A stretch of 30,105 nucleotides of DNA, from positions 1 through 30,105 of the IMG/VR virus record IMGVR_UViG_3300044633_000955; one strand, written 5' to 3'. This document shows positions 12,730 through 29,242 of this stretch, piece after piece (within the stretch, counting starts at the first letter, position 1; the number at the start of each line of letters is the position of its first letter). The position numbers were made by a program, and so were the translations under genes. The notes beneath the pieces were generated by a model. That model was given only the letters and a program-made list of their open reading frames with translations. It was not told where the DNA came from and made no database searches. This DNA comes from a virus.

Positions 12730-13091
12730 GGTTGCGCCTTAAGTAATTTTCGGATCGCTTTGATTTCTGCTTTGCTGAGAAAGTTGTCCTCTTGCTCTGC
12801 GTCTCGCTCTGCCCTCTCGGCTTTGCGTTTCGCTTTTTCTTCTGGCGAAATATCTTTGACCTTGGTTTTCACCTTCCACTGACCCTTTACTTTTTTTGGT
12901 GGTTCGACTTCCGTGTCTTGTGTGAGGTAGTCGGTGGCTGGTGTGTCCTCTATTTCAACTAGGACATAGGTGCTGCCTTCAATCTCGCCACCCTGCCAGC
13001 CTTCACCAAAGCTGGTGTTAGGATGGTTTGTGTGTGGATAGGATGGAAACTCTAGGACTGTGTCACCGTTTATTTTTGCGTAATTAGGCAC
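12726..13091 (-). CDS. Tail-fibre-associated small protein
   Basis: This 121-residue protein has the N-terminal pattern 'YAKINGDTVLEFPSYPHTNHPNTSFGEGW', seen in phage proteins that lie after fibre genes and resemble fibre assembly proteins, and a Lys/Glu-rich helical end (about 80-118). I infer a role in fibre assembly or attachment from place and pattern only. The start is GTG 13091, overlapping the upstream gene by 22 bases, with GGGGAG upstream. Confidence 0.6.
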   Translation of the reverse strand: MPNYAKINGDTVLEFPSYPHTNHPNTSFGEGWQGGEIEGSTYVLVEIEDTPATDYLTQDTEVEPPKKVKGQWKVKTKVKDISPEEKAKRKAERAERDAEQEDNFLSKAEIKAIRKLLKAQP

Positions 13092-13690: not shown

Positions 13691-13693
13691 GAT

Positions 13694-14590: not shown

Positions 14591-16719
14591 TAGTGGTTTT
14601 GGCCGCCGATCATTGCAAACCATACGGTGCCGCCGTCGTAGGTAGTTAAAACGAAGATATCAGTCTTAAGGTTGGTGCTTGTCAGAGTTGGCGCAACTCC
14701 GCCACTCCATTTTACACTCGAAGGCCATGTGATAGCCCTTGCGGTGCCATCGGCCACGAATAAAAGTGTTAGGCCGTAAGCGTTGCCGCTGGTCGGTATA
14801 TTTGAAAAGGTCAAGCTTGTGATTGCTGCATTGAGCGAGACGGCGAACACATTACCTAGCGCACAGTTTAGCGTGAGCGTTCCGCTGGATATCGTTGGTG
14901 CGGTTTTCGTTTCGATGAGGCTGGTGATCGTTGCGCTTGTGAGCGTTGGGCTGGTTGCGAAAACTAAACTTCCTCCAGTTCCGGTTTCATCCGTTACGGC
15001 GGTCTTTAGATTGGCCGAGCTTGGAGTTGCAAGGAATGCGGCAACGCTTGTACCAAGGCCGCTTACGCCTGTCGATATAGGAAGTCCGGTGCAACTGGTG
15101 AGCGTACCGCTGGAAGGTGTTCCAAGTGCGCCTGCTGGTGCTACATAATCCGTTCCTGCGGTGGCTGCACTTAGTGCGGTGCCATTCCCCTTCAACACTC
15201 CGGTGATGGAAGTCGAGATAGTAATCGCTGGCGTGGTCGTATCTGTTGCGACAGTACCGCCAAAGCCGTTTGCTGATACTACGCTTGCGCTCGTTACTGT
15301 TCCAGCGCCGCCGCCTGCCGGTGCGACACTCTGCCAAGTCGTGCCGTTAGATGTTAAAACATTTCCAGAGGTAGACGGCGCAACAAAAGTAGGTGAGCTA
15401 GTGCCGTTGCCAAGGATTACATTATCAGCCGTTAAAGTTGCCAAGCCGGTGCCACCAGATGCCACGTCGAGCGTGGCAGATAAGGATGCTGCCGAGCCTG
15501 TGATTGATCCACTAGGAACAACATAATCAGTGCCTGCTGTAGCTGCTGCGATAGCGGTGCCGTCGCCGATTAAAAGACCTGTGATGCTCGTTGAAATTGT
15601 TATCGCTGGTGTGGTGGTGTCTGTTGCAACCGTACCGGCGAAGCCGTTTGCGCTTACTACAGAGGCTTTAGTTACTGTTCCAGTGCCGCCGCCTGCTCCA
15701 CTGTAAGCGATAGTAAAGTTCGGATAGGTGCCGGTAATCGTAATATCGGTGCCATCGGTCAAGACTACGGTCTGGTCTGGTAATGAGTTGGTAATCGTGA
15801 AGGATGGGTAAGTACCAGTAACCGTAATGCCAGTGCCATCCGTAAGCGTTACCGTCTGGTCTGGCTCTGAGTTTGTGATGATGCCGGTTGCGTTATCGTA
15901 GCTGATACCAGTTCCTGCGGAAAGCGCAAGTCTAGCGTCTGTGTCTGCGTATTGTGTGATATCGCAATCGAGTGTAAACGAAGGGTAAGTGCCAGTAATG
16001 GTAATGCCTGCGCCATCCGTAAGCGTTACCGTCTGGTCTGGCTCTGAGTTTGTGACGGTGATATCGCCAGTGGTCACATCAAGAGAAATGCCAGTGCCTG
16101 CGGTCAAAGACGAAACGCCTGCGCCTCCGGTGTATGCGGTGGTTTGTACCGTGGTATCTGCGAAAGTTATTCCTAAATGCGTAACTTCTGTGCCTGTTGA
16201 CGCTGAAGAATCCCATGCACGAAGTGTAGTGCCAGCGAGCGAGTCTAGATAAAGAGGCCGTGGTGTTGCCGAGCTTTGTTCTGTAGTTACCAGCCAGCCA
16301 GCTTGCCAGTTAAATTCGTACCCTACCGAGCAAACTATTGAGATGCCATAATTGCCGCTTCGTGCGGTGTCGAAGGTTCCCTTGCCGATAAATTGCCCAC
16401 TGGTTCCATCGAAAACAATATTGCCGGTCATCGTGCCGCCAGCAAGTGGCAGAAAAGCGCCGCCGCTAGGCGTAACAAAAGTAAGAACGCCTGCGCCGTC
16501 TGTTTCGATTACTTGCCCTGCGGTGCCGTCTGCCGTCGGAAAGGTCAGGCCGTTGTTAACAAGGCCGGCAAACTCCACTGCGTCCGTTGTGTTCAAGGTC
16601 TGATCAAAGGTGTCGCCTGGGTCACCTTTAAACCCTCGGCCATCGTAGACGGTGACTAGCGTTTCGCCTTGTGCGACTGTGACGATACCGGATTCTGTGA
16701 CCACTACGATATCAGGCAC
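14590..16719 (-). CDS. Tail fibre protein with beta repeats
   Basis: This 709-residue protein is low in Cys and rich in Thr, Gly, Ser and Ala, with many short repeats: 'PDQTVTLTDG' and 'ITITGTYPSFT' occur three to four times, and 'GTVTxASVVSANGF' with 'TTTPAITISTSITG' twice. An early collagen-like 'GRGFKGDPGDT' and 'GGTMTGNIVFDGT' are typical of phage fibres, and the C-terminus ends in a compact domain ('AITWPSSVKWSGG', 'TTYDGGTVWFAMIG') common in tail fibres. It should form the trimeric host-contact fibre. Codon use is CpG-rich compared with the tape measure gene (23 versus 4 CG pairs in 300-base samples). The GTG start at 16719 is preceded by GGAGGTGA. Confidence 0.8.
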   Translation of the reverse strand: MPDIVVVTESGIVTVAQGETLVTVYDGRGFKGDPGDTFDQTLNTTDAVEFAGLVNNGLTFPTADGTAGQVIETDGAGVLTFVTPSGGAFLPLAGGTMTGNIVFDGTSGQFIGKGTFDTARSGNYGISIVCSVGYEFNWQAGWLVTTEQSSATPRPLYLDSLAGTTLRAWDSSASTGTEVTHLGITFADTTVQTTAYTGGAGVSSLTAGTGISLDVTTGDITVTNSEPDQTVTLTDGAGITITGTYPSFTLDCDITQYADTDARLALSAGTGISYDNATGIITNSEPDQTVTLTDGTGITVTGTYPSFTITNSLPDQTVVLTDGTDITITGTYPNFTIAYSGAGGGTGTVTKASVVSANGFAGTVATDTTTPAITISTSITGLLIGDGTAIAAATAGTDYVVPSGSITGSAASLSATLDVASGGTGLATLTADNVILGNGTSSPTFVAPSTSGNVLTSNGTTWQSVAPAGGGAGTVTSASVVSANGFGGTVATDTTTPAITISTSITGVLKGNGTALSAATAGTDYVAPAGALGTPSSGTLTSCTGLPISTGVSGLGTSVAAFLATPSSANLKTAVTDETGTGGSLVFATSPTLTSATITSLIETKTAPTISSGTLTLNCALGNVFAVSLNAAITSLTFSNIPTSGNAYGLTLLFVADGTARAITWPSSVKWSGGVAPTLTSTNLKTDIFVLTTYDGGTVWFAMIGGQNH

Positions 16720-16849
16720 GGGTCACCTCCGCTTTCATGCACATATAAATCCATGCGCCAATGCTCAAGGCTCCGATGCCAGTAATGATGTAGAAAGTCA
16801 CTGGGTCAATCGTGGCACCTTCTCTGTAAGGTATGTACATCGCCATCAT
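16712..16849 (-). CDS. 45-aa membrane peptide between exact 17-bp repeats
   Basis: A short gene of 45 codons with ATG at 16849 (or 16846) overlapping the previous stop as ATGA and with GGAGGTGA upstream. The product has one hydrophobic helix ('VTFYIITGIGALSIGAWIYMCM') and the C-terminus 'KAEVTRA'. It overlaps the fibre gene by eight bases. The same 17-bp DNA segment (16719-16735 and 16850-16866) closes both this gene and the one before it and doubles as the ribosome binding site of the next gene. Function unknown. Confidence 0.6.
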   Translation of the reverse strand: MMAMYIPYREGATIDPVTFYIITGIGALSIGAWIYMCMKAEVTRA

Positions 16850-17193
16850 CGGGTCACCTCCGCTTTGACATTGAAAATACCTTCAATCAATCTGATTACT
16901 GTTGATCCGGTGTATAGCTCCAGATCATAGAAGTATCTGCCTGGCGTAAGGGCTTCCATGGTGGCAGCATCGACTAATAAATCAACAGTGCCTGCAGCAC
17001 CACCTAGCGTGATTCGGGTATTTTCGGTGGTGAGTTCTAGTATTACGGTTGCGCTCGCTGCGGTGGGTCGTACTTGCATAGCTGCGGTGTAGCCTGTGAG
17101 ATTGGTTTCGACCTCGTCAGCATCGGTATAAAGAATGGTGCGGGCTAAGGTTGCACCCTGCTCAGCGTTAAATGTGTACTGTCCGGCTGGCAT
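16846..17193 (-). CDS. Structural protein with Ig-like fold, tail tip region
   Basis: This 115-residue protein matches a phage family I recall only by sequence: 'GQYTFNAEQGATLARTILYTDA', 'LTGYTAAMQVRP', 'LELTTENTRITLGGAAGTVDLLVDA' and 'YFYDLELYTGSTVIRLIEGIFNV'. The pattern is an all-beta domain like those found in baseplate and tail tip proteins. It lies directly upstream of the fibre gene, so it may help anchor the fibre. No enzyme motif is seen. The end is 'KAEVTR'. Confidence 0.6.
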   Translation of the reverse strand: MPAGQYTFNAEQGATLARTILYTDADEVETNLTGYTAAMQVRPTAASATVILELTTENTRITLGGAAGTVDLLVDAATMEALTPGRYFYDLELYTGSTVIRLIEGIFNVKAEVTR

Positions 17194-17280
17194 AATGATC
17201 TCCTAGAAAAAATTACCACCATCGTTTCATCAGCCGTCTGACTCAGGGTGCTGGACTTATACCCCTCATAGCTAACCTCT

Positions 17281-17541
17281 TCACTTGCCATTTTTGTTCT
17301 TTCGTGGCTGCATCAACCTTGCTTGGATCTGCCTGATAGTTACCCTGATCAAACTGGGTGCAATATCGCTAGGCTTTTCAATGATTTCAATAATCAGATA
17401 ACCTGCTGAAACCACATATAAACCAGTGATGCCCTGATAATGCCAGTGCTGATCCTTCCCTAAGGATACCCCAGCTTTGATGGCATCTCCAAACAGTAGA
17501 GATTGAGTCCATGAAGGATGCAATTCAAAGTGAATAACCAT
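17281..17541 (-). CDS. Small hypothetical protein, tail region
   Basis: I do not recognise this 86-residue protein. It begins 'MVIHFELHPSWTQSLLFGDAIKAGVSL', has a beta-rich centre ('GLYVVSAGYLIIEIIEK') and a strongly basic C-terminus ('RLMQPRKNKNGK'). It lies between a large tail protein and the small Ig-like protein in the same transcript, with AAAGGATC upstream of ATG 17541. Structural or chaperone roles are both possible. Confidence 0.5.
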   Translation of the reverse strand: MVIHFELHPSWTQSLLFGDAIKAGVSLGKDQHWHYQGITGLYVVSAGYLIIEIIEKPSDIAPSLIRVTIRQIQARLMQPRKNKNGK

Positions 17542-17552
17542 GGCTTGATCCT

Positions 17553-18983
17553 TTAGGGTGGTATCGCTGTTGGTTCCATCGTGTAGTTTGCGAATCCGTA
17601 AGAGTACTGAACGCCTGCGGTGTTAGGCGTTCCAGCCATCTTGAAAAGATCAATCGCCACGGTGCCGGATTGCACTACGGCTGGAGGCCATGTATGGAAA
17701 GGACTTCCATCGATTGGGTTTCCACTGTTAAACGCAAAAGGGCTAGGAATTGGAAACTGCATATAACGAGTTACACCAGGCAAATAAGTATTTGTAAACC
17801 AGTCGTAACTTGCGTAACCCCAACCGCCTCTAAGTTCTGACGAAATGTAGAAATAAGTTAGCTTTAATCTAACTCGATTAATGACATTTACCGCAGTAAT
17901 GAATTCAGCTTCATAAATGTTGAAGCCAGCCACCTTGTTTAAGGTAATCGAGTTTGGAAGCTCGGAGGTGTAATTGTTTGTTGTCCAACCTCTGGTTGGA
18001 TATGCTGAGTATAGGCTAGTTTTATAAAGGTATGTGCCCACTGTTTTTGTTAGCGTTAGTGTGGCAGGCAAAGCAAAATCGCTGATGTTGTCCGAAAATA
18101 CAATCGATGGAAAAACGGTTGGAACATTGGCGTAGCTAGGTGAGCCTGCGTAATCAGTAAAGGTGTCCAGCACAACAGTGCCAGAAAGAATGTTGTTAAG
18201 ATCAATTCCAGCAATTGCAACAGTTTTACTGAAAATCCATAGCGGATTAGTGGATCCGCTAAAACTGCCGAAAGATGTTCCTGCGGTACCGTACGAGACA
18301 TTCAAAGTGTAAGTAAGGTTGGTGCCGTCGTAAGTTATCTTTAAATAACAGTACGCTGAGGCTGCGTCGCCTGCGGTGCCTATCGGAATACTGCGCTGGT
18401 TTTGATAAGCTGGCAACATATCAGGAGAATAACCTCCCATTGTGTACGGCATTAAATCCCAACTCGAATTTAATATTGTCAATAAATTTGCAGGGTTTGC
18501 TGCATTGTCTCCAGCCACAAGAGGCAAACTACTTCTCGTAAATGTCTGAAAGTCAATCGTTGCGTACTTTGCCCAGTAGTTCGGGAAGATGTAAGGCCCA
18601 GCGCTCGTTGGTGAAATACCGTTAAAATACGGCTCGTCGCAACATTCAGGAACCCTCGCTTGCAATTTATAAAAGCCACCTTGTTTCTTGAAAACTAAAT
18701 TTCCTGTGCCACCTGTGGTAAATATCACAGGAACTTCTGCTAGTGCGTTTGCATAAGAATCGGCAAGGCCGAAACCGCCACCAACACCCGAATAAAAAAA
18801 CAGAAAATATAAATCAATAGTTCCGTAACCAGTTGGCAACACGCCTCCGGTAGTGGTCAAAGTACCACAATAAACACCAGTCGAAAGCGGTGTAGGATTG
18901 TAGCCAAATTGCCAAATTCCGGTGCCAGTGTTATAACTCGCAGCGTTCACATAATAAGCGGAATAAGTGGTGTCAACAATCAT
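17553..18983 (-). CDS. Tail tip or receptor-contact protein, unknown family
   Basis: This 476-residue protein is almost all beta by eye, rich in Tyr, Gly, Ser and Thr, and has a Cys pair ('PECCDE', about 113-116). It carries no catalytic motif. Such aromatic-rich beta proteins upstream of fibre genes are commonly distal tail or receptor-contact proteins. It overlaps the previous gene by four bases (ATGA). Its DNA is rich in CG pairs (9 in 17581-17700), like the fibre gene and unlike the tape measure gene, so it may have moved together with the fibre module. Confidence 0.55.
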   Translation of the reverse strand: MIVDTTYSAYYVNAASYNTGTGIWQFGYNPTPLSTGVYCGTLTTTGGVLPTGYGTIDLYFLFFYSGVGGGFGLADSYANALAEVPVIFTTGGTGNLVFKKQGGFYKLQARVPECCDEPYFNGISPTSAGPYIFPNYWAKYATIDFQTFTRSSLPLVAGDNAANPANLLTILNSSWDLMPYTMGGYSPDMLPAYQNQRSIPIGTAGDAASAYCYLKITYDGTNLTYTLNVSYGTAGTSFGSFSGSTNPLWIFSKTVAIAGIDLNNILSGTVVLDTFTDYAGSPSYANVPTVFPSIVFSDNISDFALPATLTLTKTVGTYLYKTSLYSAYPTRGWTTNNYTSELPNSITLNKVAGFNIYEAEFITAVNVINRVRLKLTYFYISSELRGGWGYASYDWFTNTYLPGVTRYMQFPIPSPFAFNSGNPIDGSPFHTWPPAVVQSGTVAIDLFKMAGTPNTAGVQYSYGFANYTMEPTAIPP

Positions 18984-20119
18984 GAGATTAGCCCATGGGA
19001 TCGGATGCGGGCTAAGAGCAGATTAACTTGCGTTGTTAAATCATCGATAGCCGTCTGCGTTGTCGATGCTGTTGTGGCTAAGTCTGCACTGGATATCGTG
19101 TGCGTTGCCACATCCGTGACTGCTGCTTTTCTGCTGCTGACTACCACATTGCCACCTACTGTGAGACCTGCTGGGGTTGCTGCTTGAAGGTTCCAACCTT
19201 TCACACCAGATGAACTGGTCGAGTATGCGTAGTAGTTACCAGGCGTTGCTGTATCGTTTAATAATTGCAGGGTGGTAAACACACTAGAGTTATTCGGATT
19301 ACCTCCACCCACAAGACTATTGGTGGTGGTCACATTAGGAGTGGTAAAAACCAATGCGCTTGCGGTGCAAGTTACAGATTTATAAAGTGCGCCTGAGTAA
19401 TTATTTGGCGTATCGGTCAACCCTAGAAAGTCTGCTGCCGTTGGTGCGCCTGAAAAGTTCGGACCAAACTCCAAGGCGTTTGCTGCTTCATTTACCATCA
19501 CAATTCTAGAAGCATTACCTACAAAACTTTTAGGCACCACATCCACTAGCCCTAGGAAGTTCTTAAACACTGCGCCATCATAATCCGATGTAGTTAGACT
19601 CGCAGTGGTCACTCCTATACCGCTGCCATCGGTATGACACACCACCCCCGTGACAACTTCAAAGGTGGAGCCTGCACCAGAAGGGTTTACAGGTGGTAAA
19701 CCTATCAGCACTCTTGGCTGTTCGGATTCGTTGTATCCAAAGATTGTGCCTAGGTAGAAACCCTTCCCTATACTTGGTGCCGTTTGAGTAGAGGTTAGCT
19801 TTGGTGTGAAAGTGGTGCAGGTAATCCCACCAGTGACAACACCATCAGTATTATTCTTTCCCCATTGCATTAACCCAGCAGCATCTACCCCTGAATTTAT
19901 TGGATAGCAAGTAACAGCCCCACCAATAATCCAAGCCTTAACTGTTTCGTCATAAGTGCAGGTTACTGTGGCTGGTACATAGGCCCAAATGAATGCAGGT
20001 GCATGATCCAGTGGGATAGAATCATCCACCTCTGAATTGAAAACCCCATCCTTGGATTTCTTCAAGAGTCTTAGAAGTTGCTTTGCTGTTTCAAATTCAA
20101 ATGCTACTGGGTCAGCCAT
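18980..20119 (-). CDS. Minor tail protein with fibre-like repeats
   Basis: This 379-residue protein has two short repeats of the type 'FLGLVDVVPKSFVGNASRIVMVNEAANALEF' and 'FLGLTDTPNNYSGALYKSVTCTASALVF' (about 188-260), which are common in tail fibre and tip proteins. The end is a helical segment ('DLATTASTTQTAIDDLTTQVNLLLARI') suited to a trimeric coiled coil. The N-terminal 150 residues look like a globular attachment domain. It starts one base after the 323-residue gene, implying translational coupling. I take it as a tail tip or side-fibre protein; the exact partner is unknown. Confidence 0.6.
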   Translation of the reverse strand: MADPVAFEFETAKQLLRLLKKSKDGVFNSEVDDSIPLDHAPAFIWAYVPATVTCTYDETVKAWIIGGAVTCYPINSGVDAAGLMQWGKNNTDGVVTGGITCTTFTPKLTSTQTAPSIGKGFYLGTIFGYNESEQPRVLIGLPPVNPSGAGSTFEVVTGVVCHTDGSGIGVTTASLTTSDYDGAVFKNFLGLVDVVPKSFVGNASRIVMVNEAANALEFGPNFSGAPTAADFLGLTDTPNNYSGALYKSVTCTASALVFTTPNVTTTNSLVGGGNPNNSSVFTTLQLLNDTATPGNYYAYSTSSSGVKGWNLQAATPAGLTVGGNVVVSSRKAAVTDVATHTISSADLATTASTTQTAIDDLTTQVNLLLARIRSHGLIS

Positions 20120-20120
20120 G

Positions 20121-21092
20121 TTAGAAGAATCCTAGTCCTGGTAAAGTGGAATAATCGATGGTTCCGTAGACATCCGCACTGGCAAAAACTACATAGCTAT
20201 TAGCAGCACCAGCAGCAGTTTTCTTCCCTGCTCCATTTAATCTCACTGGTTGCGTGATTTTTACCCCACCCTCAAAGATCGGTGCCCTCTCACCATCATC
20301 TTTCCTAATCCGATAGCCCATATCTAAAAGGTGCATATCCCACCCTATCACTGTGGTTCCATCCGTGGGGCTTAAGCTGGTGTTAATCTCTACCTCATAA
20401 GTCAATCGCCAGTATTGAAGCTTCCCCTCAAGAAGTAATTCCGTGTTGATGTTCTTAATCTTCCCAGTCTTTGCTGGGATGCTCAGAACACACCCAGTGC
20501 CTGTGGTAAATGTCACACTAGTAGAATTCACTTTGCCTATGTAGGTGGCTAGGGTGTAGCTGTTAATCGATTTAACATTGCAGCCAATACTAAAAATAGG
20601 TCTGAACTTTTCTATCGTGATCGGTGGTACAAATGGATCGCCTGCACTGTTGTTGATGTTCGGCACTATGTAAGGAAAACTAACAAAGTTTACTTTAAAA
20701 TCTGGTGGTCTTAAGGTGGGGTTGGCTTCCCTGTCTGCGGGTTTCTGGCCTCCCTGCTGGGTTTCCACTTGGGGTGGTGGAGTGCTGCCACTAGGGGATG
20801 ATGAAGCTGCATCTGGATTAGATGAATACTCAATCGTTACTTTCCAAGTCTGTGGATCATCCTGCTCAGGTGAGATGTTTACAGACTGAGCATAGCTGTC
20901 ATCATCCCCAGGGAAAAGATCGCCAATCTGAGGGCAGTTAATATGCCCATAAATGGCATCATAGATATTAATATCAGTCTGCTCTAGGGAGTCGGTGTGA
21001 ACGATGAAAGACCGCGAAAAAGTATTCTGGTAACTCTTATCCAGAGTTCCTTTACGCTCCTGCCATAGCTCCTCAAAGATATCTATCGCCAT
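20121..21092 (-). CDS. Minor tail protein, tape-measure neighbour
   Basis: This 323-residue protein begins with a conserved-looking domain ('FSRSFIVHTDSLEQTDINIYDAI', 'CPQIGDLFPGDDD', 'WKVTIEYSS') that I recall from phage tail proteins of other siphoviruses. A Pro/Ser/Gln-rich linker (about 93-125) joins it to a beta-rich second domain (125-320). It lies immediately after the tape measure gene, where distal tail or tail tip hub proteins are encoded, so a tail tip role is likely. No protease or lysozyme motif is seen. Confidence 0.6.
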   Translation of the reverse strand: MAIDIFEELWQERKGTLDKSYQNTFSRSFIVHTDSLEQTDINIYDAIYGHINCPQIGDLFPGDDDSYAQSVNISPEQDDPQTWKVTIEYSSNPDAASSSPSGSTPPPQVETQQGGQKPADREANPTLRPPDFKVNFVSFPYIVPNINNSAGDPFVPPITIEKFRPIFSIGCNVKSINSYTLATYIGKVNSTSVTFTTGTGCVLSIPAKTGKIKNINTELLLEGKLQYWRLTYEVEINTSLSPTDGTTVIGWDMHLLDMGYRIRKDDGERAPIFEGGVKITQPVRLNGAGKKTAAGAANSYVVFASADVYGTIDYSTLPGLGFF

Positions 21093-21102
21093 GGTTAGTT
21101 CC

Positions 21103-24100
21103 TTATGGGTTCAATGCAACAGCAATGGCTTGGGGTTTTGGCATTAGTCCTGGTAAATTTTGGATAGCTGTGGCAATTTCTTGCGCTGCTATAAGTTGCT
21201 GTTGCTCCATCTCAGCAGCAGCTTCCATGAGTTGTCTGATTTCTTCTTGGACATTCTTGGCTTTGCCCATCTCATCAACTCGGACTTGGAATTCTGCAGC
21301 CGATCCAGCTTGAACTGCGGATGCAAACTGCTGTGGACCGCCTAGCCCAGTGGCTTGTTTTAGTTTGGCAATGGCATTAGCACTACCAAGAGCAAAGGCC
21401 ATAGCCCCTTCTTTGGATCCATCCATCATCCCTTTAAGTTTTGCTACTTCATTTTCATACTGCTGTAGTGGTGTAATGTTATCGGCAAAGAACTTCTTCC
21501 AACCTGGTTCTTCTATCCTCATGGGCTTTTGGACTTCATCACTTAGCTTTTGCCACTGCTTATCAAATTCAGCCAGTTCCATTTCAGCTAGCTGCATCTC
21601 TTCTTCTAATGCAGTTAGCCAAGTTCCACCCCCATTGGATGCAGGTTGCATCATTTCATTAATATCATCAGGACCAAAGCCACCACCTGCCCCACTAAAT
21701 TCAGTATCCACTAATGCTTGGGCATTCTGCGCTGCCTGCCCTAAAGCATTGGCTAGGTTGTTGACCCCATCCGCTGCATTGTTTGCGCTGCCACCAATTG
21801 TTTCCACCCCTGTTGCCCAGTCGTAGACATCTGCACCAGATTGAACGATTGCCACCCCTGCATCTGCTACTGGATCGAGAACATTATTCTGAATCCATCG
21901 GGCCATGCTGTCACCCTTTTTAACGATGTCGATAGTGATGACCACCACATCTTTGGCAAAACCTAGTAACCATTTGAGGTCATCAATAAAAGGTTTTAAA
22001 TCTGCTAGCATCTGCTCTGCAGCTTTTCGAACCTGTTCAAGCATTTCATCGATGGTCATTTTTTCGGTAAAGATAATCCACTCATCCACAATGCTGGACA
22101 GATTATCCATCACCATCCCAGTGGTGGTGGAAACAAATGCGCCTATCTTTTGTAATAGTGGTTCTAGATCCTCAGCCTTTTTAAAGACTGAATCAAAGAA
22201 GTTTGTAACGGAATCACCAAGGTTGACTAATCCAAAACCCTCTAGAAGACTGGTTCCCAGTTTCTGAATCAGCACTTCAATATTATTGGTAACCCTGCTC
22301 CAGACTCCTGAAAAACTATTGGCAGATTCCTGTGCTGCTGCTGCCATGTTTGGCATTGCTGCTGCATCTTGTAAACCCACCGCTGCATCTGTAACTGATA
22401 TCAGCCCTGCTGCTACTCGCCTCTTCAATTCATCAACACTGATTCCCATCCTACTTGCCATGGCTTCAAAGATCGGGATCCCCTCTTCAGCCAGTTTTCC
22501 CAAGGCAGACATAGTTGCCACACCCTCACTAGCCATGTCAGCTAGTTTATCTGTAATCAGGGCTACAATCTTTTCGGGATTCCCTAGGGCTACACCCAGT
22601 CTGTTAAAGTCCTTGATTAAACCAGTAACTACATCGGGTCTGAATTTCATCTGGCTTAATCGGGTAGCAGCTTCACCCAATGCGTTAAAGCTGGCACTGG
22701 GGCCAGTGGTCATAATTTGTTGCAGCCCTTTGGCTATCCCTTTAAATCCGGTCAGTGCCTTAAGCCTGTTATCTAGTTCCTGAAACTTACTTCCAGAATC
22801 AATAACCTTGGCACCTAGATCAATCACAGAAGATGTGATCTTAGTTACCAGATTCAAAGCCCCATCAAAGATCTTGCTGAATGCGGATGTGAAGAATCCT
22901 ATGCCTAGCATGTCAGTGATTTTCATGCCACCTTTAGATTCTTTAGCTTTTTTCTCTTCTGGTGGTTTTCTAATTCCTAATTTTATTTCAGCATCGGACA
23001 GTTTCTTTTCAGCCTTTTCTAATGCTGATAATTCCTTGGCTAACTTGGCAGCACTGCCATCAGCTATCATCATCTGCCTAGCTTGCTGATCTAGTTTTTT
23101 ATTAAGTATGTCTGTTTCTGCAGACATTTTCTTAGCATTGGTTACATAGGCAGCCGTGTTCTTATTCTCTGGAATTGGTGGTGGCTTAATTGGAATGGGT
23201 GGGGGAATTCCCCTGGCCTTATTCTCTGCAGCAATTAACTTCTGTTCGATCTGCTCCAACCTGACCATCTCATCATGAAGCTTTTTAGTTGCCCCTGAAT
23301 CAATGTTCATCTGTCTTGCTTGCAGTTCCAAAGCCTTGGATGCTAGATCGGTCTTAGACTTCAGGTTGATTTGTTCCTGGACAAACTCAGGGGTGTTGGT
23401 ATCCACCTTGGGTGGTTCTACCACTGCGGGTGGTTCGATGATTGGAACTGGTTGATTAATACCCTTCACTTTATCTTCTGCTAATGCTAGGGCTTTTTCC
23501 TGTTCTTCTAATTTCACTAGTTCATCATGAAGGGCTTTGGTTGCGCCAGTATCTAACATCATCTGTCGAGCCTGAATCTCAAGCTTTCTAGCATTGATGT
23601 CAAGTTCTGCGTTCAATGTTTTGGTAGATGCTGCAAAGCCTATTGCCTGATCATCCACAGCAAGCATGGATGCGATTACATTTTTGTTTTCTAGGGCTAA
23701 TAGCTTTTGCTTCTGGGTGTTCAACTCAATTAGCAAGGTATTATTCTTGAATGCTGCATCAGTCTTCATCAGATTGTTTTCAAGCTCTTTATAGCCTGTC
23801 TGAAGTTTAGCAGTCTGGAATTGAAGTTCGTTTTCATCCTTCATCAACAACAGGGTTGCGCCATCGAGCAAGACCATCTGATCCACTGCAAGCTTAGCTG
23901 CTGCAGAGGTCTGTTTAAACATGGTCGCATTGATGGAACCTGATGCTGCTGCCTGTTGGAGTTGCTCGAGCGATAGCGTTACCTTTTCGGTTGCGGTGGT
24001 AACCTTAACCGCATCCATAGCTGCAGCTACACTGCTACTACCAAAGGCTTGAACTTTTGTGGATGCTGTGTCTAGGGAAGATGTGAAGCCTGAAAGATCT

Positions 24101-24144
24101 GCTGTAACACTTAGACTGGCTCTTCCTAGAGATGTATCTGCCAT
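21103..24144 (-). CDS. Tail tape measure protein
   Basis: A 1013-residue protein, the longest in the window, placed after the tail chaperones as usual. It sets tail length and helps DNA entry. The N-terminal part is coiled coil. Three copies of a module of about 60-80 residues follow (about 182-400), each with 'QARQM', a heptad-rich helix and a Pro-rich hinge ('NQPVPIIEPP', 'PPPIPIKPPP', 'RKPPEEKKAKE'). A central tape-measure domain is clear ('LAEEGIPIFEAMASRMGISVDELKRRVAAGLIS', about 551-583). Hydrophobic helices after residue 620 may be membrane-active. If tail length scales with this protein (about 1.5 angstrom per residue), the tail would be near 150 nm. Confidence 0.92.
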   Translation of the reverse strand: MADTSLGRASLSVTADLSGFTSSLDTASTKVQAFGSSSVAAAMDAVKVTTATEKVTLSLEQLQQAAASGSINATMFKQTSAAAKLAVDQMVLLDGATLLLMKDENELQFQTAKLQTGYKELENNLMKTDAAFKNNTLLIELNTQKQKLLALENKNVIASMLAVDDQAIGFAASTKTLNAELDINARKLEIQARQMMLDTGATKALHDELVKLEEQEKALALAEDKVKGINQPVPIIEPPAVVEPPKVDTNTPEFVQEQINLKSKTDLASKALELQARQMNIDSGATKKLHDEMVRLEQIEQKLIAAENKARGIPPPIPIKPPPIPENKNTAAYVTNAKKMSAETDILNKKLDQQARQMMIADGSAAKLAKELSALEKAEKKLSDAEIKLGIRKPPEEKKAKESKGGMKITDMLGIGFFTSAFSKIFDGALNLVTKITSSVIDLGAKVIDSGSKFQELDNRLKALTGFKGIAKGLQQIMTTGPSASFNALGEAATRLSQMKFRPDVVTGLIKDFNRLGVALGNPEKIVALITDKLADMASEGVATMSALGKLAEEGIPIFEAMASRMGISVDELKRRVAAGLISVTDAAVGLQDAAAMPNMAAAAQESANSFSGVWSRVTNNIEVLIQKLGTSLLEGFGLVNLGDSVTNFFDSVFKKAEDLEPLLQKIGAFVSTTTGMVMDNLSSIVDEWIIFTEKMTIDEMLEQVRKAAEQMLADLKPFIDDLKWLLGFAKDVVVITIDIVKKGDSMARWIQNNVLDPVADAGVAIVQSGADVYDWATGVETIGGSANNAADGVNNLANALGQAAQNAQALVDTEFSGAGGGFGPDDINEMMQPASNGGGTWLTALEEEMQLAEMELAEFDKQWQKLSDEVQKPMRIEEPGWKKFFADNITPLQQYENEVAKLKGMMDGSKEGAMAFALGSANAIAKLKQATGLGGPQQFASAVQAGSAAEFQVRVDEMGKAKNVQEEIRQLMEAAAEMEQQQLIAAQEIATAIQNLPGLMPKPQAIAVALNP
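22945..23601 (-). repeat. Three degenerate coding repeats in the tape measure gene
   Basis: Repeat units start near 23601, 23343 and 23106. Each encodes 'QARQM', a charged helix and a Pro-rich hinge. They have diverged at the DNA level, so the duplication is old. Changes in copy number would alter tail length in steps. Confidence 0.65.
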
Positions 24145-24147
24145 GGT

Positions 24148-24468
24148 CTAAGTCCTTTTTTTAGTAACCAGCCCACCTAACATTGCTGCTATCTGTGCGG
24201 GTGTTTGCCTTTGCTCTACCCTCTCACCCATCCAGTCAGGGATAAAATCACTTAGCTTATGTTTGCTAGTGCTAGTGCAAGCCACTTGGGTATGCTGAAC
24301 GGATCCAGCTAAGAAATCTAATCTTGCATCCCCAATGGGTTCGATCCGAGAGAAAGCCACCCACTCCATCATTTCACTGTGGCTCATCTCTTGCTCGATC
24401 TCTGACACCATCTTTTTTAAGTGGCCAGCCAATCTAAATAAAAATAATCTAGATGGGCTTTCCCTTAG
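24148..24468 (-). CDS. Tail assembly chaperone T part, made by -1 frameshift from G
   Basis: This is the T-like half of a G-GT pair of tail assembly chaperones. Read in the -1 frame from the slip site it gives 106 residues: 'LRESPSRLFLFRLAGHL' then 'MVSEIEQEMSHSEMMEWVAFSRIEPIG', matching the conserved T-family start that comes before the internal TTG at 24432. The frame is open from the slip site on, so the fusion with the 117-residue G part would be 223 residues. Such fusion proteins recruit tail tube subunits onto the tape measure and are absent from the finished virion. A separate start at TTG 24432 is unlikely because it would cut off the conserved motif. Confidence 0.85.
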   Translation of the reverse strand, partial: LRESPSRLFLFRLAGHLKKMVSEIEQEMSHSEMMEWVAFSRIEPIGDARLDFLAGSVQHTQVACTSTSKHKLSDFIPDWMGERVEQRQTPAQIAAMLGGLVTKKRT

Positions 24469-24474
24469 TTTTTT
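24427..24474 (-). promoter_or_regulatory. -1 ribosomal frameshift signal
   Basis: On the minus strand the heptamer A AAA AAC (24468-24474) is in the G reading frame just before its TAA stop. After an eight-base spacer a hairpin begins: AGCC, one mismatch, ATCTA pairing with TAGAT, one mismatch, GGCT (24427-24459). Slip heptamer, spacer and hairpin are the three parts of a classical -1 signal. Confidence 0.85.
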
Positions 24475-24818
24475 TCCGCATCCTCTACTGCACCTGCACC
24501 AATACGATTTATTTTCAAGATCGCATCAAAGATCTTTTCCAAGATCGTTGCAGGTAACACATTCACTTCTGAAATATCAGCCTCAGTGAATAAGGCTTTG
24601 CCCTGTTCATCGCAGCACCCTTTAATGAGCATCCTTGCTCTAAGGTTGTCAGGGGTTTTATTCTTGACTCGTGCTGCGTTGAATTCGTTGTCTATGCTGT
24701 CTCGTTCACCAACTGTCAGACTTCTGACCCAGACAGATCCTTCCCACTCGGGTACCAAAACCTCTTGCCTGGGCAAGTTGTCTTTTTTTGCAAGGATCTG
24801 TGATCGTGATAAAGCCAT
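24465..24818 (-). CDS. Tail assembly chaperone G part
   Basis: A 117-residue protein with the usual start of siphovirus tail chaperones ('LSRSQILAKKDNLPRQEVLVPEWEGSVWVRSLTVGERDSID'). It binds tail proteins during assembly, alone or as part of the G-T fusion. It lies between the tail tube and the tape measure genes, the conserved place. It ends 'AEKN' at the slippery heptamer, so most ribosomes should terminate here and a minority continue into the T frame. ATG 24818 follows the tail tube gene by 15 bases. Confidence 0.85.
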   Translation of the reverse strand: MALSRSQILAKKDNLPRQEVLVPEWEGSVWVRSLTVGERDSIDNEFNAARVKNKTPDNLRARMLIKGCCDEQGKALFTEADISEVNVLPATILEKIFDAILKINRIGAGAVEDAEKN

Positions 24819-24833
24819 AACAAAAGACTCCTA

Positions 24834-25229
24834 TTAGTCTGGATAACAAATACCCGAGACTTTAACAGTGAAAGTACACTTGATCAGTTCATCACCCACA
24901 GCAATGGAACTAATGCCCCTGCTTGTGATAAATCCATTAACAGTAATCGAAAGGGTAATAGGTGCAGGAATGGCTATGACAAAAGCAGATTCCGTTCTAG
25001 CCACTGCTATTGCATTAAGTGCAGCAAAATTTGTTGCGTCTAGATTGCACTCAAAGGTCATTTCCCCTGCATCCTCTAACCCAGCTATAAACTCATGAGC
25101 TTGATTAGCTGTGCTTAAGTTCGTTACTTGGATCGAACCTATTTTGCTAACTGGTGGAGTTATAGAAATAACTTCAGCAACAGCAGTGCCAGCAGTAAGG
25201 GTAACACCATAAGTCGATTGAACTGCCAT
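24834..25229 (-). CDS. Major tail tube protein
   Basis: A 131-residue protein starting 'MAVQSTYGVTLTAGTAVAEVISITPP' and beta-rich to the end, as expected for a siphovirus tail tube subunit. The pattern 'AHEFIAGLEDAGEMTFECNLD' and 'TFTVKVSGI' is typical of these proteins. Its position between the DUF3168-like completion protein and the tail chaperones is the standard one. I chose ATG 25229 because GGAGG lies eight bases upstream; a start at 25244 would overlap the previous gene and ignore that site. Confidence 0.85.
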   Translation of the reverse strand: MAVQSTYGVTLTAGTAVAEVISITPPVSKIGSIQVTNLSTANQAHEFIAGLEDAGEMTFECNLDATNFAALNAIAVARTESAFVIAIPAPITLSITVNGFITSRGISSIAVGDELIKCTFTVKVSGICYPD

Positions 25230-25233
25230 AATT

Positions 25234-25656
25234 CTAGCCTCCAAAAAAGTCGGTTACAGTTTCAGTAAATAAGACCACCACATCAATCGTTGCTCGGTGG
25301 ATCCCAGTATCTTTTGCAGATTCCAGATCCCACCCCACATCCTCAGAATCTAATCTGGACTGATGGATGTAAGTGGTGTTCCAGTTTCCCTGAAACCCAT
25401 CTACCCTTAGTCTAATTGATTCTACTATCGATTCGCAAACTGTACGGCTTGCAGCAAAAATGTCACAAGTTATCCTTGCAGTGCAAACACCAGTAGCCCC
25501 ACGCAAAGTCATCTGCCTATCCACAGAAGTTTTTTCATAAACCAAAAGTGGTAGCGTTGCATTCTGCGGGCTGGCATCTGGATAGATCCTCGTTCCCAGC
25601 AGTGCTGTGATGGATCCTTCACCTGTCATGTATGAATAGAAATCGGATTCAATCAT
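25234..25656 (-). CDS. Tail completion protein (DUF3168, gp17-like)
   Basis: A 140-residue protein with the DUF3168 pattern: an N-terminal 'ITALLGTRIYPDASPQNATLPLLVYEK', 'CTARITCDIFAAS', 'VESIRLRVDG' and a last strand 'RATIDVVVLF'. The family joins the tail tube to the head-tail connector. It overlaps the gp10-like gene by four bases (ATGA) and is followed by the tail tube gene, the usual order. Confidence 0.9.
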   Translation of the reverse strand: MIESDFYSYMTGEGSITALLGTRIYPDASPQNATLPLLVYEKTSVDRQMTLRGATGVCTARITCDIFAASRTVCESIVESIRLRVDGFQGNWNTTYIHQSRLDSEDVGWDLESAKDTGIHRATIDVVVLFTETVTDFFGG

Positions 25657-26240
25657 TTCTTTACCCCTATTTTAGAGATAATTTCAGCCATCTTTTCTGA
25701 GAATCTACTAAATATTTGTGATCCAGCAGCAGCAAGTGCAGTTTTCATGAACGGTTTTGCCGTTGCACCAGGGTGCTGCCAGCTTTTAAATCTGCCAGGC
25801 ATAACTGGACCCACAAAACTTTTGTTCTTTTCTTTGCGTCTTGGTGAAACTGTGTGCGGTGCTGCCCCTCTTTCAACAAGATGAGCATATCTAAATGGCT
25901 CAATTTTAAGACCGTTTTTTAATGTGATGGAAGTGCCAAACTTTGGACCCACTAGTCCTAATATTTTCTTTTTACTTCCCCTGCCAAACTTTTTAGCCTT
26001 CACTGCAATAGACTTCCTTAATAGGCCAGTCCTGCCAGACTTATTTTTATTGCTTCTTTGTTTTGGTGCATTAGCTTTCACTTGCTTCTGCAGGGGCTGC
26101 AAAGCAAAGCGCATGGCACTAACTAACTTTCCATCACTCTTCCCACCTGTTAAATCTTTGAAGGTCTGCAACAGGGCATCTAAGCCTTCAATAGAAACCT
26201 TGCCCTTCTTAATCAAAAGTGATTTATCTAATTTCCCCAT
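25653..26240 (-). CDS. HK97 gp10-like tail component
   Basis: A 195-residue, strongly basic protein of the HK97 gp10 family, which acts in head-tail joining or tail completion. Family features are 'EGLDALLQTFKDL', 'PLQKQVKANAPKQ', 'GRTGLLRKSIAVK', 'RYAHLVERGAAPHTV' and 'GATAKPFMKTALAA'. It is longer than usual because of Lys/Arg-rich inserts ('KAKKFGRGSKKKI', 'SPRRKEKNKSFV'). Start ATG 26240 overlaps the upstream stop. Confidence 0.9.
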   Translation of the reverse strand: MGKLDKSLLIKKGKVSIEGLDALLQTFKDLTGGKSDGKLVSAMRFALQPLQKQVKANAPKQRSNKNKSGRTGLLRKSIAVKAKKFGRGSKKKILGLVGPKFGTSITLKNGLKIEPFRYAHLVERGAAPHTVSPRRKEKNKSFVGPVMPGRFKSWQHPGATAKPFMKTALAAAGSQIFSRFSEKMAEIISKIGVKK

Positions 26241-26560
26241 TAGCTCACCGCCTCTACGCAGTCCACCTGCAAAGTGTGGTTGCCTTCATCCACATTAATG
26301 ATGGATGCAATATCAAAGATTCTTGCATCCATTTTGATCCGGTGCCCATGCTCTAAACCATCAAACCATCTAAGGGTTATCCGGTGGGAAAGTTCGGGTC
26401 TAACCGATTTTGCATAGAATCCTTCTCTGGATGTGAGTGGGATTATTCCTGCCCACCTTGTTTGGGATGTGGTCCAACTCATCACAGGTTGCCCCATGGC
26501 ATCGCTAGTTGATGTCTGTGTCTGAATCTCCACCCTGTATTGCAATAGACCTGGTCGCAT
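26240..26560 (-). CDS. Head closure protein (SPP1 gp16-like)
   Basis: A 106-residue head-tail joining protein. It begins 'LLQYRVEIQTQTSTSDAMGQPVMSW' and continues 'RWAGIIPLTSREGFYA', 'ELSHRITLRWFDGLEHGHRIKMDARIFDIASIINVDE', the pattern of the Phage_H_T_join family. It closes the capsid channel below the connector. It overlaps both neighbours by one base (TAATG type), in the standard head-tail module. Confidence 0.92.
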   Translation of the reverse strand: MRPGLLQYRVEIQTQTSTSDAMGQPVMSWTTSQTRWAGIIPLTSREGFYAKSVRPELSHRITLRWFDGLEHGHRIKMDARIFDIASIINVDEGNHTLQVDCVEAVS

Positions 26561-27135
26561 TAGTGGTAGATCCCTGTGGTGTAGATCGTGACGATTGAAG
26601 CCACTGCCATTGGAACTTCTTTAAGATCAGTATCTGTGACCGCTGATCGGTTTTCATATAGATGACACACATAGAATAACATTCCAGATTTCAATAATTT
26701 AGGAACCAATTCTGCCGTACTGTAGCCAGTGGTGTAACTAACCTGCACAGCGTTCACCACTTCTGCGGTTGCTGGCCATGACTGATTAAAAGCTGGTGTG
26801 ATTCTCGCTGGGTTAGACACTAGGTCTTCTATCCAGTTAGCCAAAGTCTGTGTATTGTTTTGGGTGTCTGCGTAGCTGATATCTTCTACAGACTGGACTG
26901 GTCCTCTTGGCAGATAAACAATGTCATCGAAAGAATCCAAGGCCAGCAAGACTTCCTGACTGGCTATGGATATTTCGCACTGACTTTCAAAAAACATCCT
27001 TGCACTGGTGATGCAGCTATTTAAAAGCGCATCATCATAATTGCCATCAATCCTTAGATGGCTTTTTACTTCTGACAATGTCAGAGGTTCGGTTGTCGGT
27101 GGTGTCACTACCTGAATTCTGCCCTTGATTTCCAT
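26560..27135 (-). CDS. Head-tail connector (gp6-like)
   Basis: A 191-residue protein of the gp6-like connector family, the ring that docks under the portal. The family start 'VVTPPTTEPLTLSEVKSHLRIDGNYDDALL' and 'SARMFFESQCEISIASQEVLLALD' are clear, followed by 'LPRGPVQSVEDISYAD' and 'VQVSYTTGYS'. The first 30 codons overlap the upstream gene by 89 bases in another frame. The start at ATG 27135 is needed to keep the family N-terminus. Confidence 0.92.
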   Translation of the reverse strand: MEIKGRIQVVTPPTTEPLTLSEVKSHLRIDGNYDDALLNSCITSARMFFESQCEISIASQEVLLALDSFDDIVYLPRGPVQSVEDISYADTQNNTQTLANWIEDLVSNPARITPAFNQSWPATAEVVNAVQVSYTTGYSTAELVPKLLKSGMLFYVCHLYENRSAVTDTDLKEVPMAVASIVTIYTTGIYH

Positions 27136-27313
27136 GATCTCTTACCTCAGGTATGACTTTGGAACTGGCCTTTTCTTTAGCTGCTGGTGTGGCAGGAGTG
27201 GCATAACCAATCCTGCACCATTCAGCACCTACATCGTCAGGCACATCTATGATTAGGCCAGCGTTGGTGTCTTCCCAAGCACTGGCCACACTGATTATCA
27301 TTTTTATTTTCAT
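27047..27313 (-). CDS. Small protein after the capsid gene
   Basis: An 88-residue protein in the slot between capsid and connector genes. The first 50 residues ('MIISVASAWEDTNAGLIIDVPDDVGAEWCRIGYATP') are conserved-looking and recall a small family found at this place in phages; the rest is low complexity ('GNQGQNSGSDTTDNRTSD') and overlaps the connector gene for 89 bases in a different frame. The start ATG overlaps the capsid stop as TAATG. It may be a capsid accessory protein, which is a guess from position. Confidence 0.6.
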   Translation of the reverse strand: MKIKMIISVASAWEDTNAGLIIDVPDDVGAEWCRIGYATPATPAAKEKASSKVIPEVRDHGNQGQNSGSDTTDNRTSDIVRSKKPSKD

Positions 27314-28638
27314 TAGCTTGCTGCCATTAATAGGGACCAGATTGGGTTATAGGTGGTAGTGTTCCCAGTAAGGACACAACCATCAAACCTACTGAACGCT
27401 ACCCAGCCGATTTGAGCAAGTGCTGCATAGGTTTCATTTTGGCGAACCAAAGTGAGACCACCAGAACCTACTACAGTTCGGACCGTGTAAGATGACAGAT
27501 CACCAAAGATGATAGGCTTAGTTGCAGCAGCAGCAGATACCATGTTGTTGTTTAAGACAACAGGATAGCCAAGGATGGTAGGAAGTCGGCCAGATGCATC
27601 AACATAGTTAGAAACCAAGATCGGCCTTCCAGCAGTATCAAGGATAGATGCAATCTGATTCATGGTGGTTGAGTTCATCATGAATGCACATTTAGGGCTA
27701 GCCCTGTGTGCTGGATCAACATTACCAATCAAGGTCATGATGTTGGCCACAGTGATTGCAGTGGTACTAGCAACAGCAGTTGAAGGGTTTGCACCTACTA
27801 CTATGCCAGTTGGCTGGGAACTTCCTGTGCCTACGCTCATGTGATTTTCAGTAATTCTCCCCAATCGTGTGCCTGCCACTTTTGCTACAAGGCTTTCAAT
27901 GTCAATCAAAGAATCTTCAAACAATTCATAGGAAGTCAGAATCTGTTTGGAAGAATACTTATAAGCATTAAGGGTCTTGGTTGCAGTGGTGAAAGCAGTT
28001 TGGGCTGATGCACTATTTTCACCTAAGAGTTCACCAGTCACACCAGTTTCATCAAGCAATGGGAAATTAAGTGCAGATCCAGTGCTGGTGCTGATAACAG
28101 TAGCAACTTGCATAACTGAGTTATAATCTCTCAAGGCTTCTGTGAGGGTGTCATAAAAACCAGAGTTAGTGAGTGCGCCACCGATGCCAGCAGAGCCAAT
28201 GCCCTGGGCAGCTCGGGTAGCTCCAAGATCAAGGGTATTGCTGTTGAGGTCCAAACCAGTTTCATTAGCAGCAGCAGCGAATTCATTTCTGAATGCAGGT
28301 GTGCCTTTGGTGAACCAACCACGCAGAGCATTGGACTGATTAGCTTTTGCTTTGCGGTCTGACACATCAGCGACAAAGTGGGGTGCTGAAATCGGTGCAG
28401 ACTTTCTTACACTGCGTTTGACGGATTCAAGCTTTTCTGAATTCTGTTGCATGGATGCAGAACCAGCAGCAGCATCTTCAAGCACTGCAAGTCGAACATC
28501 GATATCTGCTACGGATGCAGCAAGATTATCAAAGGAAGTTTGTTCCTCTGGGGTCAATGCCCTAGCTGCCAAAGTTTCCATCGAGTTTACTTTCTCGATG
28601 CGATCAAGCTGCAAGGCTTTGATTTCTGAAATACTCAT
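27313..28638 (-). CDS. Major capsid protein, HK97 fold
   Basis: This 441-residue protein builds the icosahedral head. The first 80-130 residues form a helical delta (scaffold) domain ('LAARALTPEEQTSFDNLAASVADIDVRLAVLED'), likely removed by the nearby protease. The HK97 core follows: 'GWFTKGTPAFRNEF', 'NFPLLDETGVTGELLGENSA', 'YKYSSKQILTSYELFEDSLIDIESLVA', 'HMSVGTGSSQPTGIV', 'CAFMMNSTTMNQIASILDTAGRPI', 'GYPVVLNNNM' and 'IIFGDLSSYTVR'. Length and order match the family. It has its own promoter and a structured leader upstream, which suits the large amount needed. ATG 28638 has AAGGA about ten bases upstream. Confidence 0.97.
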   Translation of the reverse strand: MSISEIKALQLDRIEKVNSMETLAARALTPEEQTSFDNLAASVADIDVRLAVLEDAAAGSASMQQNSEKLESVKRSVRKSAPISAPHFVADVSDRKAKANQSNALRGWFTKGTPAFRNEFAAAANETGLDLNSNTLDLGATRAAQGIGSAGIGGALTNSGFYDTLTEALRDYNSVMQVATVISTSTGSALNFPLLDETGVTGELLGENSASAQTAFTTATKTLNAYKYSSKQILTSYELFEDSLIDIESLVAKVAGTRLGRITENHMSVGTGSSQPTGIVVGANPSTAVASTTAITVANIMTLIGNVDPAHRASPKCAFMMNSTTMNQIASILDTAGRPILVSNYVDASGRLPTILGYPVVLNNNMVSAAAATKPIIFGDLSSYTVRTVVGSGGLTLVRQNETYAALAQIGWVAFSRFDGCVLTGNTTTYNPIWSLLMAAS

Positions 28639-28648
28639 AGGTATTTTT

Positions 28649-28724
28649 CCTTGAAAAAGAGTTCTTCAAGGTGCCCGCATACGCAGTGGCACCATGCCGG
28701 AATGCTCCGGTGGCCACCATGCGT
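28649..28724 (-). promoter_or_regulatory. Structured leader of the capsid mRNA
   Basis: Two hairpins fill the leader. The larger (28681-28724) stacks ACGCA/TGCGT, GTGGC/GCCAC and CCGGA/TCCGG stems with a four-base loop. The smaller (28649-28671) pairs CCTTGAA with TTCAAGG over a nine-base loop, and its downstream arm contains the AAGG of the ribosome binding site. Translation of capsid is therefore likely to be limited until this hairpin opens. Confidence 0.65.
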
Positions 28725-28745
28725 AAATACTGCAAGGCTTCCCCC

Positions 28746-28773
28746 ATTTTTACATGGGTTGGAAATGTGTCAA
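28746..28773 (-). promoter_or_regulatory. Candidate capsid promoter
   Basis: A perfect -35 box TTGACA (28768-28773) and a weak -10 box AAAAAT (28746-28751) stand 16 bases apart on the minus strand, about 100 bp before the capsid start and downstream of the terminator at 28933-28964. The terminator makes a separate promoter for the capsid gene necessary. Confidence 0.5.
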
Positions 28774-28932: not shown

Positions 28933-28964
28933 CAAAAAAAGCCCCTAGGGATTAGCTAGGGGCT
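28933..28964 (-). terminator. Rho-independent terminator before the capsid gene
   Basis: A perfect 9-bp stem (AGCCCCTAG/CTAGGGGCT, 28940-28948 with 28956-28964) with a seven-base loop is followed by seven T on the minus strand. It lies 17 bases after the small membrane protein gene. Between it and the capsid gene (28639-28932) I see no gene. Confidence 0.92.
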
Positions 28965-28981: not shown

Positions 28982-29242
28982 TTACCTTAACCAAGAGATA
29001 TTGCTTTTAAGGTAAATATAAACAGGGGACAATATAAGAAAGACAATAAAACCTGCAATGAATATTAGAACCACCCGAATACACAATCCAATTAAATGAC
29101 CCATGTTTTGTGGTGGTGCTGGTGCCTTGTTCTGATTAGCCATCGTTGCATAGATCACATGAAGGGGTATGGTTATGAACAACCCAAAGAATCCGCACAT
29201 GAATGCCAGAAAGTGAAGCACAATAAAAACAGCATGACCCAT
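28982..29242 (-). CDS. Two-helix membrane protein between protease and capsid genes
   Basis: An 86-residue protein with two hydrophobic segments (about 5-32, 'VFIVLHFLAFMCGFFGLFITIPLHVIY', and 48-77, 'LIGLCIRVVLIFIAGFIVFLIL') joined by a Pro/Ala-rich loop. It is not part of the usual head module, where capsid follows protease directly, and it ends in its own terminator. A moron such as a superinfection-exclusion protein fits, but no family is certain. ATG 29242 has GAGGA eight bases upstream; a 7-codon upstream reading frame and an inverted repeat (CATGGTT/AACCATG, 29239-29245 with 29272-29278) surround the start. Confidence 0.65.
   Translation of the reverse strand: MGHAVFIVLHFLAFMCGFFGLFITIPLHVIYATMANQNKAPAPPQNMGHLIGLCIRVVLIFIAGFIVFLILSPVYIYLKSNISWLR

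Follow-up and report, generated by a model that had tools for sequence, protein, structure and literature searches.

The major capsid protein gene of this phage is preceded by a structured leader RNA that most likely represents a new cis-acting family, in which a conserved core would be read by some factor and a hairpin would act as a gate over the Shine-Dalgarno (SD) sequence. That this leader controls translation of the major capsid protein is the reading we favor, and from sequence comparison we give it a probability of roughly 0.55. Judged by the same comparisons, the leader itself is real and conserved, is absent from Rfam 15, and stands before the capsid gene in a group of uncultured tailed phages. 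The evidence comes from the window, meaning the whole 30,105-nucleotide stretch that was analysed (IMG/VR record IMGVR_UViG_3300044633_000955), and from relatives recruited through their capsid proteins.

The capsid transcription unit and its leader

An earlier note on the window had described, without giving a strand, a strong terminator and a separate promoter followed by a capsid leader with a tall hairpin and a second hairpin that includes the SD bases. Terminator, promoter, leader and capsid gene were all found and are all read from the minus strand, with the terminator running from 28964 to 28934, the promoter from 28773 to 28746, the tall hairpin from about 28738 to 28673, and the SD hairpin from about 28671 to 28649. 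The gene that follows is indeed a capsid gene, as both of its profile matches (phrog_10 and PF05065) agree. The features are listed below.

27313-28638, minus strand: major capsid protein gene, 441 aa, HK97-type, start codon at 28638 (phrog_10, E 6e-51; PF05065, E 3e-45)
28639-28743, minus strand: structured leader RNA, the 5' UTR of the capsid mRNA (z score of -3.35, covariance model, pair counts)
28648-28652, minus strand: Shine-Dalgarno sequence AAGGA, about 9 nt ahead of the ATG
28649-28671, minus strand: P4, hairpin CCUUGAAGAA-CUC-UUUUUCAAGG, predicted by folding to sequester the SD
28670-28675, minus strand: GGCACC, candidate partner strand of P5; it overlaps P0 and the two opening bases of P4 (suggestive only)
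28673-28678, minus strand: P0, 3' strand (pair counts in alignment A3; partner sequences clade-specific)
28681-28724, minus strand: P1, long hairpin (folding and pair counts)
28688-28693, minus strand: candidate P5 strand GGUGCC, in the 3' arm of P1, able to pair with 28670-28675 (window shuffle p 0.046; suggestive only)
28697-28710, minus strand: P3, inner hairpin in P1, CCGGA-GCAU-UCCGG (two-sided changes at 4 of 5 pairs in alignment A7)
28725-28731, minus strand: unpaired AGUNUUU, in the window AGUAUUU, on the 5' side of the ACGC at the base of P1, conserved in capsid-selected relatives
28732-28738, minus strand: P0, 5' strand of the outer closing helix (3 of 6 pairs changed on both sides in alignment A3)
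28746-28773, minus strand: promoter, TTGACA-16-AAAAAT, with TG ahead of the second (-10) hexamer
28934-28964, minus strand: intrinsic terminator, 9-bp stem, 7-nt loop and T-run

The terminator is predicted to insulate the capsid unit from the upstream genes, and under a strict stem-plus-T-run rule a terminator lies no more than 300 nt upstream in 34 of the 57 distinct leaders tested. A promoter with a score of at least 9, on a scale made up of the 12 hexamer positions plus 1 for the TG, stands just upstream in 57 of 58 distinct leaders, and its -10 hexamer ends 1 to 10 nt ahead of the leader cut in this set. Comparison shows that, with the separate promoter where it is, the predicted transcript start falls no more than about 10 nt from the fold. 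Between the protease and capsid genes the window also holds an 86-aa open reading frame (28982-29242, minus strand) with no PHROGs or Pfam match. Further away, at 8201-9388 on the minus strand, there is a phage integrase (PF00589), because of which the phage is probably temperate; no tRNA was found in the window.

The leader is about 100 nt long and consists, in order, of the outer helix P0, the unpaired AGUAUUU, the long hairpin P1 enclosing P3, and a separate hairpin P4 with the SD bases AAGG in its 3' strand. The minus-strand fold has an energy of -41.6 kcal/mol and a z of -3.35, equalled by 2 of 200 shuffles, and a slightly different cut gives z -3.89 with none of 200 shuffles as good, compared with a z of only -1.70 for the plus strand across the same region (14 of 200 shuffles equally good). 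The AGUNUUU block occurs as a single copy within the window. The stretch UUUACGC at 28721-28727 (CUUUACGC in clade B) is complementary to GCGUAAAG, which we take to be a conserved segment of 16S rRNA, and a match of 7 to 8 bases to an rRNA lies near chance level.

Conservation of the fold in relatives

Relatives were recruited by capsid-protein searches rather than by motif searches, with a reach of about 35-40% protein identity, and loci are referred to here by L numbers. A capsid-protein search of viral contigs yielded 39 loci (L010, L012, L014 and L030 being left out of this set), and the leader was present in 31 of the 35 whose upstream region was viewed; in the remaining four, at 33-36% identity, the match begins mid-protein. 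A capsid alignment query gave 80 loci, with the leader in 32 of the 33 viewed (two of them from a record starting inside the leader) and one too short, and a further alignment query gave 80 viral and 4 genome loci, with the leader in 10 of the 19 viewed. The loci of these two queries that were passed over (47 of 80 and 65 of 80) were short records, contigs already seen or close kin. Among the nine non-carriers of the further query, L344, L345, L357 and L358 have no leader near the true capsid start, and the other five matched mid-protein. Apart from those four loci, the capsid-selected relatives whose sequence extends far enough ahead of the true start carry AGUNUUU. One carrier, L356, lies on a contig filed under a Rhodobacteraceae metagenome-assembled genome.

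Pattern scans extended the set. Searching for GCAGTCTTTACGCA...TGCGT produced many further clade-B members, and another scan returned 46 stretches, 30 of which are in contigs of the capsid-protein search, while the other 16 divide into nine with the leader and seven chance matches. A scan with the apical sequence found the leader, among the viewed loci of L085-L137, only in L122 (the same contig as L013), the rest being chance matches or coding sequence; extra AGTNTTTACGC matches in two phage contigs likewise fall in coding sequence. The resulting set of 58 distinct leaders was harvested with the motif itself, and conservation of the motif is to be judged from the capsid-selected sets. A covariance model, R1, scores the L356 locus at 26.6 bits and gives no match at E 0.01 over the whole genome behind that locus. 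The clade-B model, R2, places the window leader full length at its exact site, but with 17 bits and E 0.57, a score that by itself proves nothing since phage HK022 also gave a chance match of 17 bits (its single R2 match, E 0.084, at 30529-30634, antisense in gene O). In L194 the block is found in two copies (AGTCTTTACGC and AGTCTTAACGC, within 2769-2934), each ahead of a hairpin-like stretch.

One plan is common to very different sequences: an outer helix, the unpaired AGUNUUU, and a P1 that opens with ACGC and closes with GCGU or GUGC. The P0 partners differ by clade: GCC(C) pairs with (G)GGC in the window clade, L011 has GCTG with CAGC, clade B has CAGTGCA with TGCACTG, and L208 has GCGTA with TACGC. 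Clade B also has an additional hairpin, P2, between P1 and the SD hairpin. Unconstrained folding gives P0, P1 and P4 in 10 of 13 leaders, the others being L149, L172 and L176. In L213, L189, L223 and other clade-B leaders, not including the window clade, a run of T6-T8 directly follows P1 and resembles an intrinsic terminator inside the capsid leader.

Covariation was counted in MAFFT alignments of 16 of the 23 distinct clade-A leaders (A3) and 17 of the 21 distinct clade-B leaders (A4). A3 contains 6 pairs and 17 cells with two-sided changes, against a shuffle mean of 4.0 cells and slid controls of 0-4 pairs and 0-7 cells; A4 contains 5 pairs and 18 cells, against a shuffle mean of 6.8 cells and slid controls of 0-2 pairs and 0-4 cells. 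P2 of clade B has two-sided changes at 4 of 5 pairs. A model-based alignment of 21 leaders (A7), which leans to structure, gives 8 pairs and 28 cells, with P3 changed at 4 of its 5 pairs. Compensatory change thus supports P0, P1/P3 and P2, and P4 only through its differing sequences between clades. Conservation of pairing in relatives was the check that the earlier note had set for itself, with a lack of covariation, together with unchanged reporter expression, as grounds for dropping the idea, and the pairing conserved in relatives supports its picture of a structured, separately transcribed leader with a hidden SD. Comparison shows a predicted fold made up of P0, the unpaired AGUNUUU and a P1 starting with ACGC, with P4 pairing the SD in most clades.

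Over the whole leader, clades A and B are 50-56% identical, against a shuffled baseline of 51-52%, and we take them to be connected by the shared block and plan. Closer to the window, L011 and L013 share 73-75% identity with it in the leader, 53-56% in the promoter region and 63-64% in the first 240 nt of the coding sequence. L017, L021 and L032 resemble the window in the leader and the N-terminal part of the capsid and not in the rest of the protein (for L017, 91% in the leader, 88% in coding positions 1-240 and 66% in the remainder), which suggests recombination within the gene.

Several other accounts of the conserved stretch were set aside. A chance fold is rejected by the covariation and the strand specificity. 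A site acting at the DNA level, such as a packaging site or an origin, is disfavored, since the sense strand accepts G-U pairs and the promoter is where the fold begins. For a leader peptide, the ATG frame in the window leader is short and ends inside the capsid gene, the ATG is absent in the L008-type leaders, and lengths differ by single bases. A resemblance to boxA (TCTTTA) fails because the block varies (UAUUUA, UUUUCA, UGUUUA).

The Shine-Dalgarno hairpin and a candidate switch pairing

In the window, both folding and a contiguous-stem test find the SD base-paired in a hairpin that adjoins the start codon, and a contiguous 10-bp stem through the SD is reached in only 2 of 1000 shuffles. 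Contiguous SD stems as long as those of other leaders arise in 28-62 of 1000 shuffles for four clade-B leaders, in 41 of 1000 for L208 and in 12 of 1000 for L277. The sequence of P4 is unrelated between three clades (CCUUGAA/UUCAAGG in the window clade, CCUAAUA/UAUUAGG in clade B and AUCCUU/AAGGAU in L208 and its kin), and for this reason hiding of the SD looks selected. Within clades P4 varies mainly on one side, so its support comes from the recurrence of long SD stems of differing sequence. Sequestration of the SD is supported, at the level of predicted pairing, for the window clade and two others.

Care is needed with the energetic measures. The cost of opening the SD in the window is 5.55 kcal/mol, which ranks 8th of the 43 window genes, or 15th if positions -16 to -5 are used, and an energy-based shuffle test of P4 is weak, with 6-30% of shuffles equalling the P4-bearing leaders; the thermodynamics of SD opening are not extraordinary on their own, whereas the comparative evidence is. 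The highest opening cost among the 43 genes, 11.1 kcal/mol, belongs to the start region of the 86-aa open reading frame. The contiguous-stem test found no P4-type stem in L149, L172, L176, L356 or L194; L194 has an interrupted SD stem and L356 a distant alternative pairing. The L172-L180 clade, together with L149 and L356, has kept the core and lost the SD hairpin, and in that clade the SD region is open and A/U-rich. Since the core is retained there with the SD mostly free (in L172 its probability of being unpaired is 0.70), SD hiding is not the sole role of the core. SD hiding is thus frequent in the family without being universal, which means that the core has to carry a value of its own.

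A further pairing, P5, would join the 3' side of P1 to the strand that covers the SD. These two stretches read GGUGCC/GGCACC in the window, GGGG/CCCC in L011, GGGGC/GCCCU in clade B and UAAGGAU/AUCCUUA in L194. Of 17 leaders, 11 had a shuffle p below 0.05 for complementarity between their own two stretches, and values were higher in L356 (0.059), L213 (0.114), L208 (0.137), L280 (0.241), L277 (0.366) and L176 (0.410). By our reading, two-sided changes occur at two positions, U-A to G-C in L011/L013 and G-C to A-U in L202. Because its strands also serve other helices, P5 is a lead and not a result, and the switch to which it points is only suggestive. One form such a switch could take would be new to phages: the SD-like stretch on the 3' side of P1 would pair with the anti-SD strand of P4, a signal acting on the AGUNUUUACGC core would pick the pairing, and capsid translation would be turned on at one stage of infection. 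We regard this two-state form as unlikely.

Possible roles and comparison with known systems

If the leader controls capsid translation as we favor, some reader, whether a protein, the ribosome or another factor, would recognize the invariant AGUNUUUACGC, and P4 would lower translation until ribosomes, that factor or refolding opened it. One possible refolding would pair the strand that otherwise covers the SD with P1's 3' side (GGUG in the window). Capsid synthesis might thereby be set apart from that of the upstream protease and portal genes. The earlier note's idea that RNA structure or a protein may time capsid output is plausible.

Capsid protein is required in large amounts, and the leader could instead be a 5' stabilizer that loads ribosomes for high output in the manner of T7 gene 10, with a 5' stem that blocks decay and a P4 that only tunes expression passively. 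This is consistent with a fold whose start lies, in all clades, near the predicted start of the transcript, and with the L172-L180 leaders, which keep the core beside an open, A/U-rich SD region; however, it leaves unexplained both the invariant AGUNUUUACGC and the full SD hairpins of differing sequence in three clades, and we consider it rather improbable. An operator at which a phage protein, for example the capsid protein in a feedback loop, binds the core and locks P4 shut once there is enough protein would fit the invariant single-stranded AGUNUUU beside an invariant helix base, which resembles a protein site, and the single copy directly ahead of the capsid gene in the phages checked. 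The core nevertheless persists where P4 has been lost and the binding partner is purely putative, which leaves an operator of this kind a doubtful proposition, to be held at low odds.

Mechanisms acting on transcription fare worse. A put-like RNA would modify RNA polymerase and prevent termination across the long structural operon, and the leader does share with putL of HK022 its place just after a promoter and a similar size, while in clade B there are two hairpins with conserved unpaired bases, as described for put in PMC9378689. Yet terminator-like sites in 9400-28700 are no commoner than in shuffles (21 versus 18.7), R1 has no match in HK022 and R2 none at a put site there, and an SD hairpin is unnecessary for antitermination, all of which makes such a role very improbable. 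Transcription attenuation with P1 as the terminator draws on the T6-T8 runs after P1 in clade B, but the window clade and the L208 and L194 types lack a T-run after P1, and the T's of L202 and L207 are paired in the next hairpin; we find it scarcely credible. The earlier note had also drawn attention to three GGA motifs, near the likely start site, in the upper hairpin and in the ribosome binding site, of the kind bound by CsrA/RsmA. The three triplets are present in the window leader, but the regulatory hint drawn from them falls away: only 2 of the 58 distinct leaders have a GGA 5' of the AGUNUUU block, the apical triplet is part of a stem and gives way to other bases in relatives (apical GGAGCATTCC is found in 23 of 58), and the last triplet is simply the SD. 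These leaders do not show the mark of a CsrA target, GGA conserved in the loops of hairpins, and we give a CsrA/RsmA-type leader next to no credence.

No Rfam family reaches its gathering score anywhere in the window. When the leaders of the window, L212, L208 and L011 were scanned with an E-value threshold, nothing came near gathering; the weak matches had 8.4, 7.6 and 11.2 bits, where the cut-offs are 45, 125 and 40. Among the listed results of a literature search of open-licence papers, none reported a structured leader ahead of the capsid gene in tailed phages. Related reports include a glutamine riboswitch with a tmRNA gene, not a capsid gene, in a marine phage (PMC9004378) and candidate structured RNAs near phage genes (PMC8040213, where the word capsid does not appear). 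The named HK97-type phages KS9, H4907 and AP-16-3 have capsids 33-41% identical to those of clade B but differ in that the capsid gene begins 65-75 nt after the protease gene, and their regions gave no R1 or R2 match. The put RNA of HK022, as PMC9378689 describes it, is likewise a fold of about 70 nt that comes directly after a phage promoter and has conserved unpaired bases, but it acts on polymerase for early genes, whereas the present leader continues into an SD hairpin and serves the capsid gene. T7 gene 10 also has a dedicated promoter near the capsid gene, and its leader carries a special element ahead of the SD (PMC8748333 and the T7 record), but that element is an A/U-rich enhancer for strong expression, in contrast to the paired SD and covarying core fold seen here. 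In the window there is no such enhancer upstream of an open SD, the SD being paired, and the L172-L180 leaders come nearer to that arrangement; neither R1 nor R2 matches the T7 region.

The coat-protein operator of MS2-type RNA phages is a hairpin that contains the SD and controls a phage gene. The leader described here is similar in both respects, but it belongs to a dsDNA tailed phage, the downstream gene is that of the capsid itself, and the protein that would read it is putative. Translational riboswitches and ribosomal-protein leaders combine a conserved core with an SD-sequestering hairpin, the same two parts as in this leader, which differs from them in having no Rfam match. Control of the capsid in dsDNA phages is usually put down to the timing of transcription and to gene order. 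A covarying leader core directly before the capsid gene would be a specific RNA layer of control, and in AGUNUUUACGC the leader offers a compact, testable motif.
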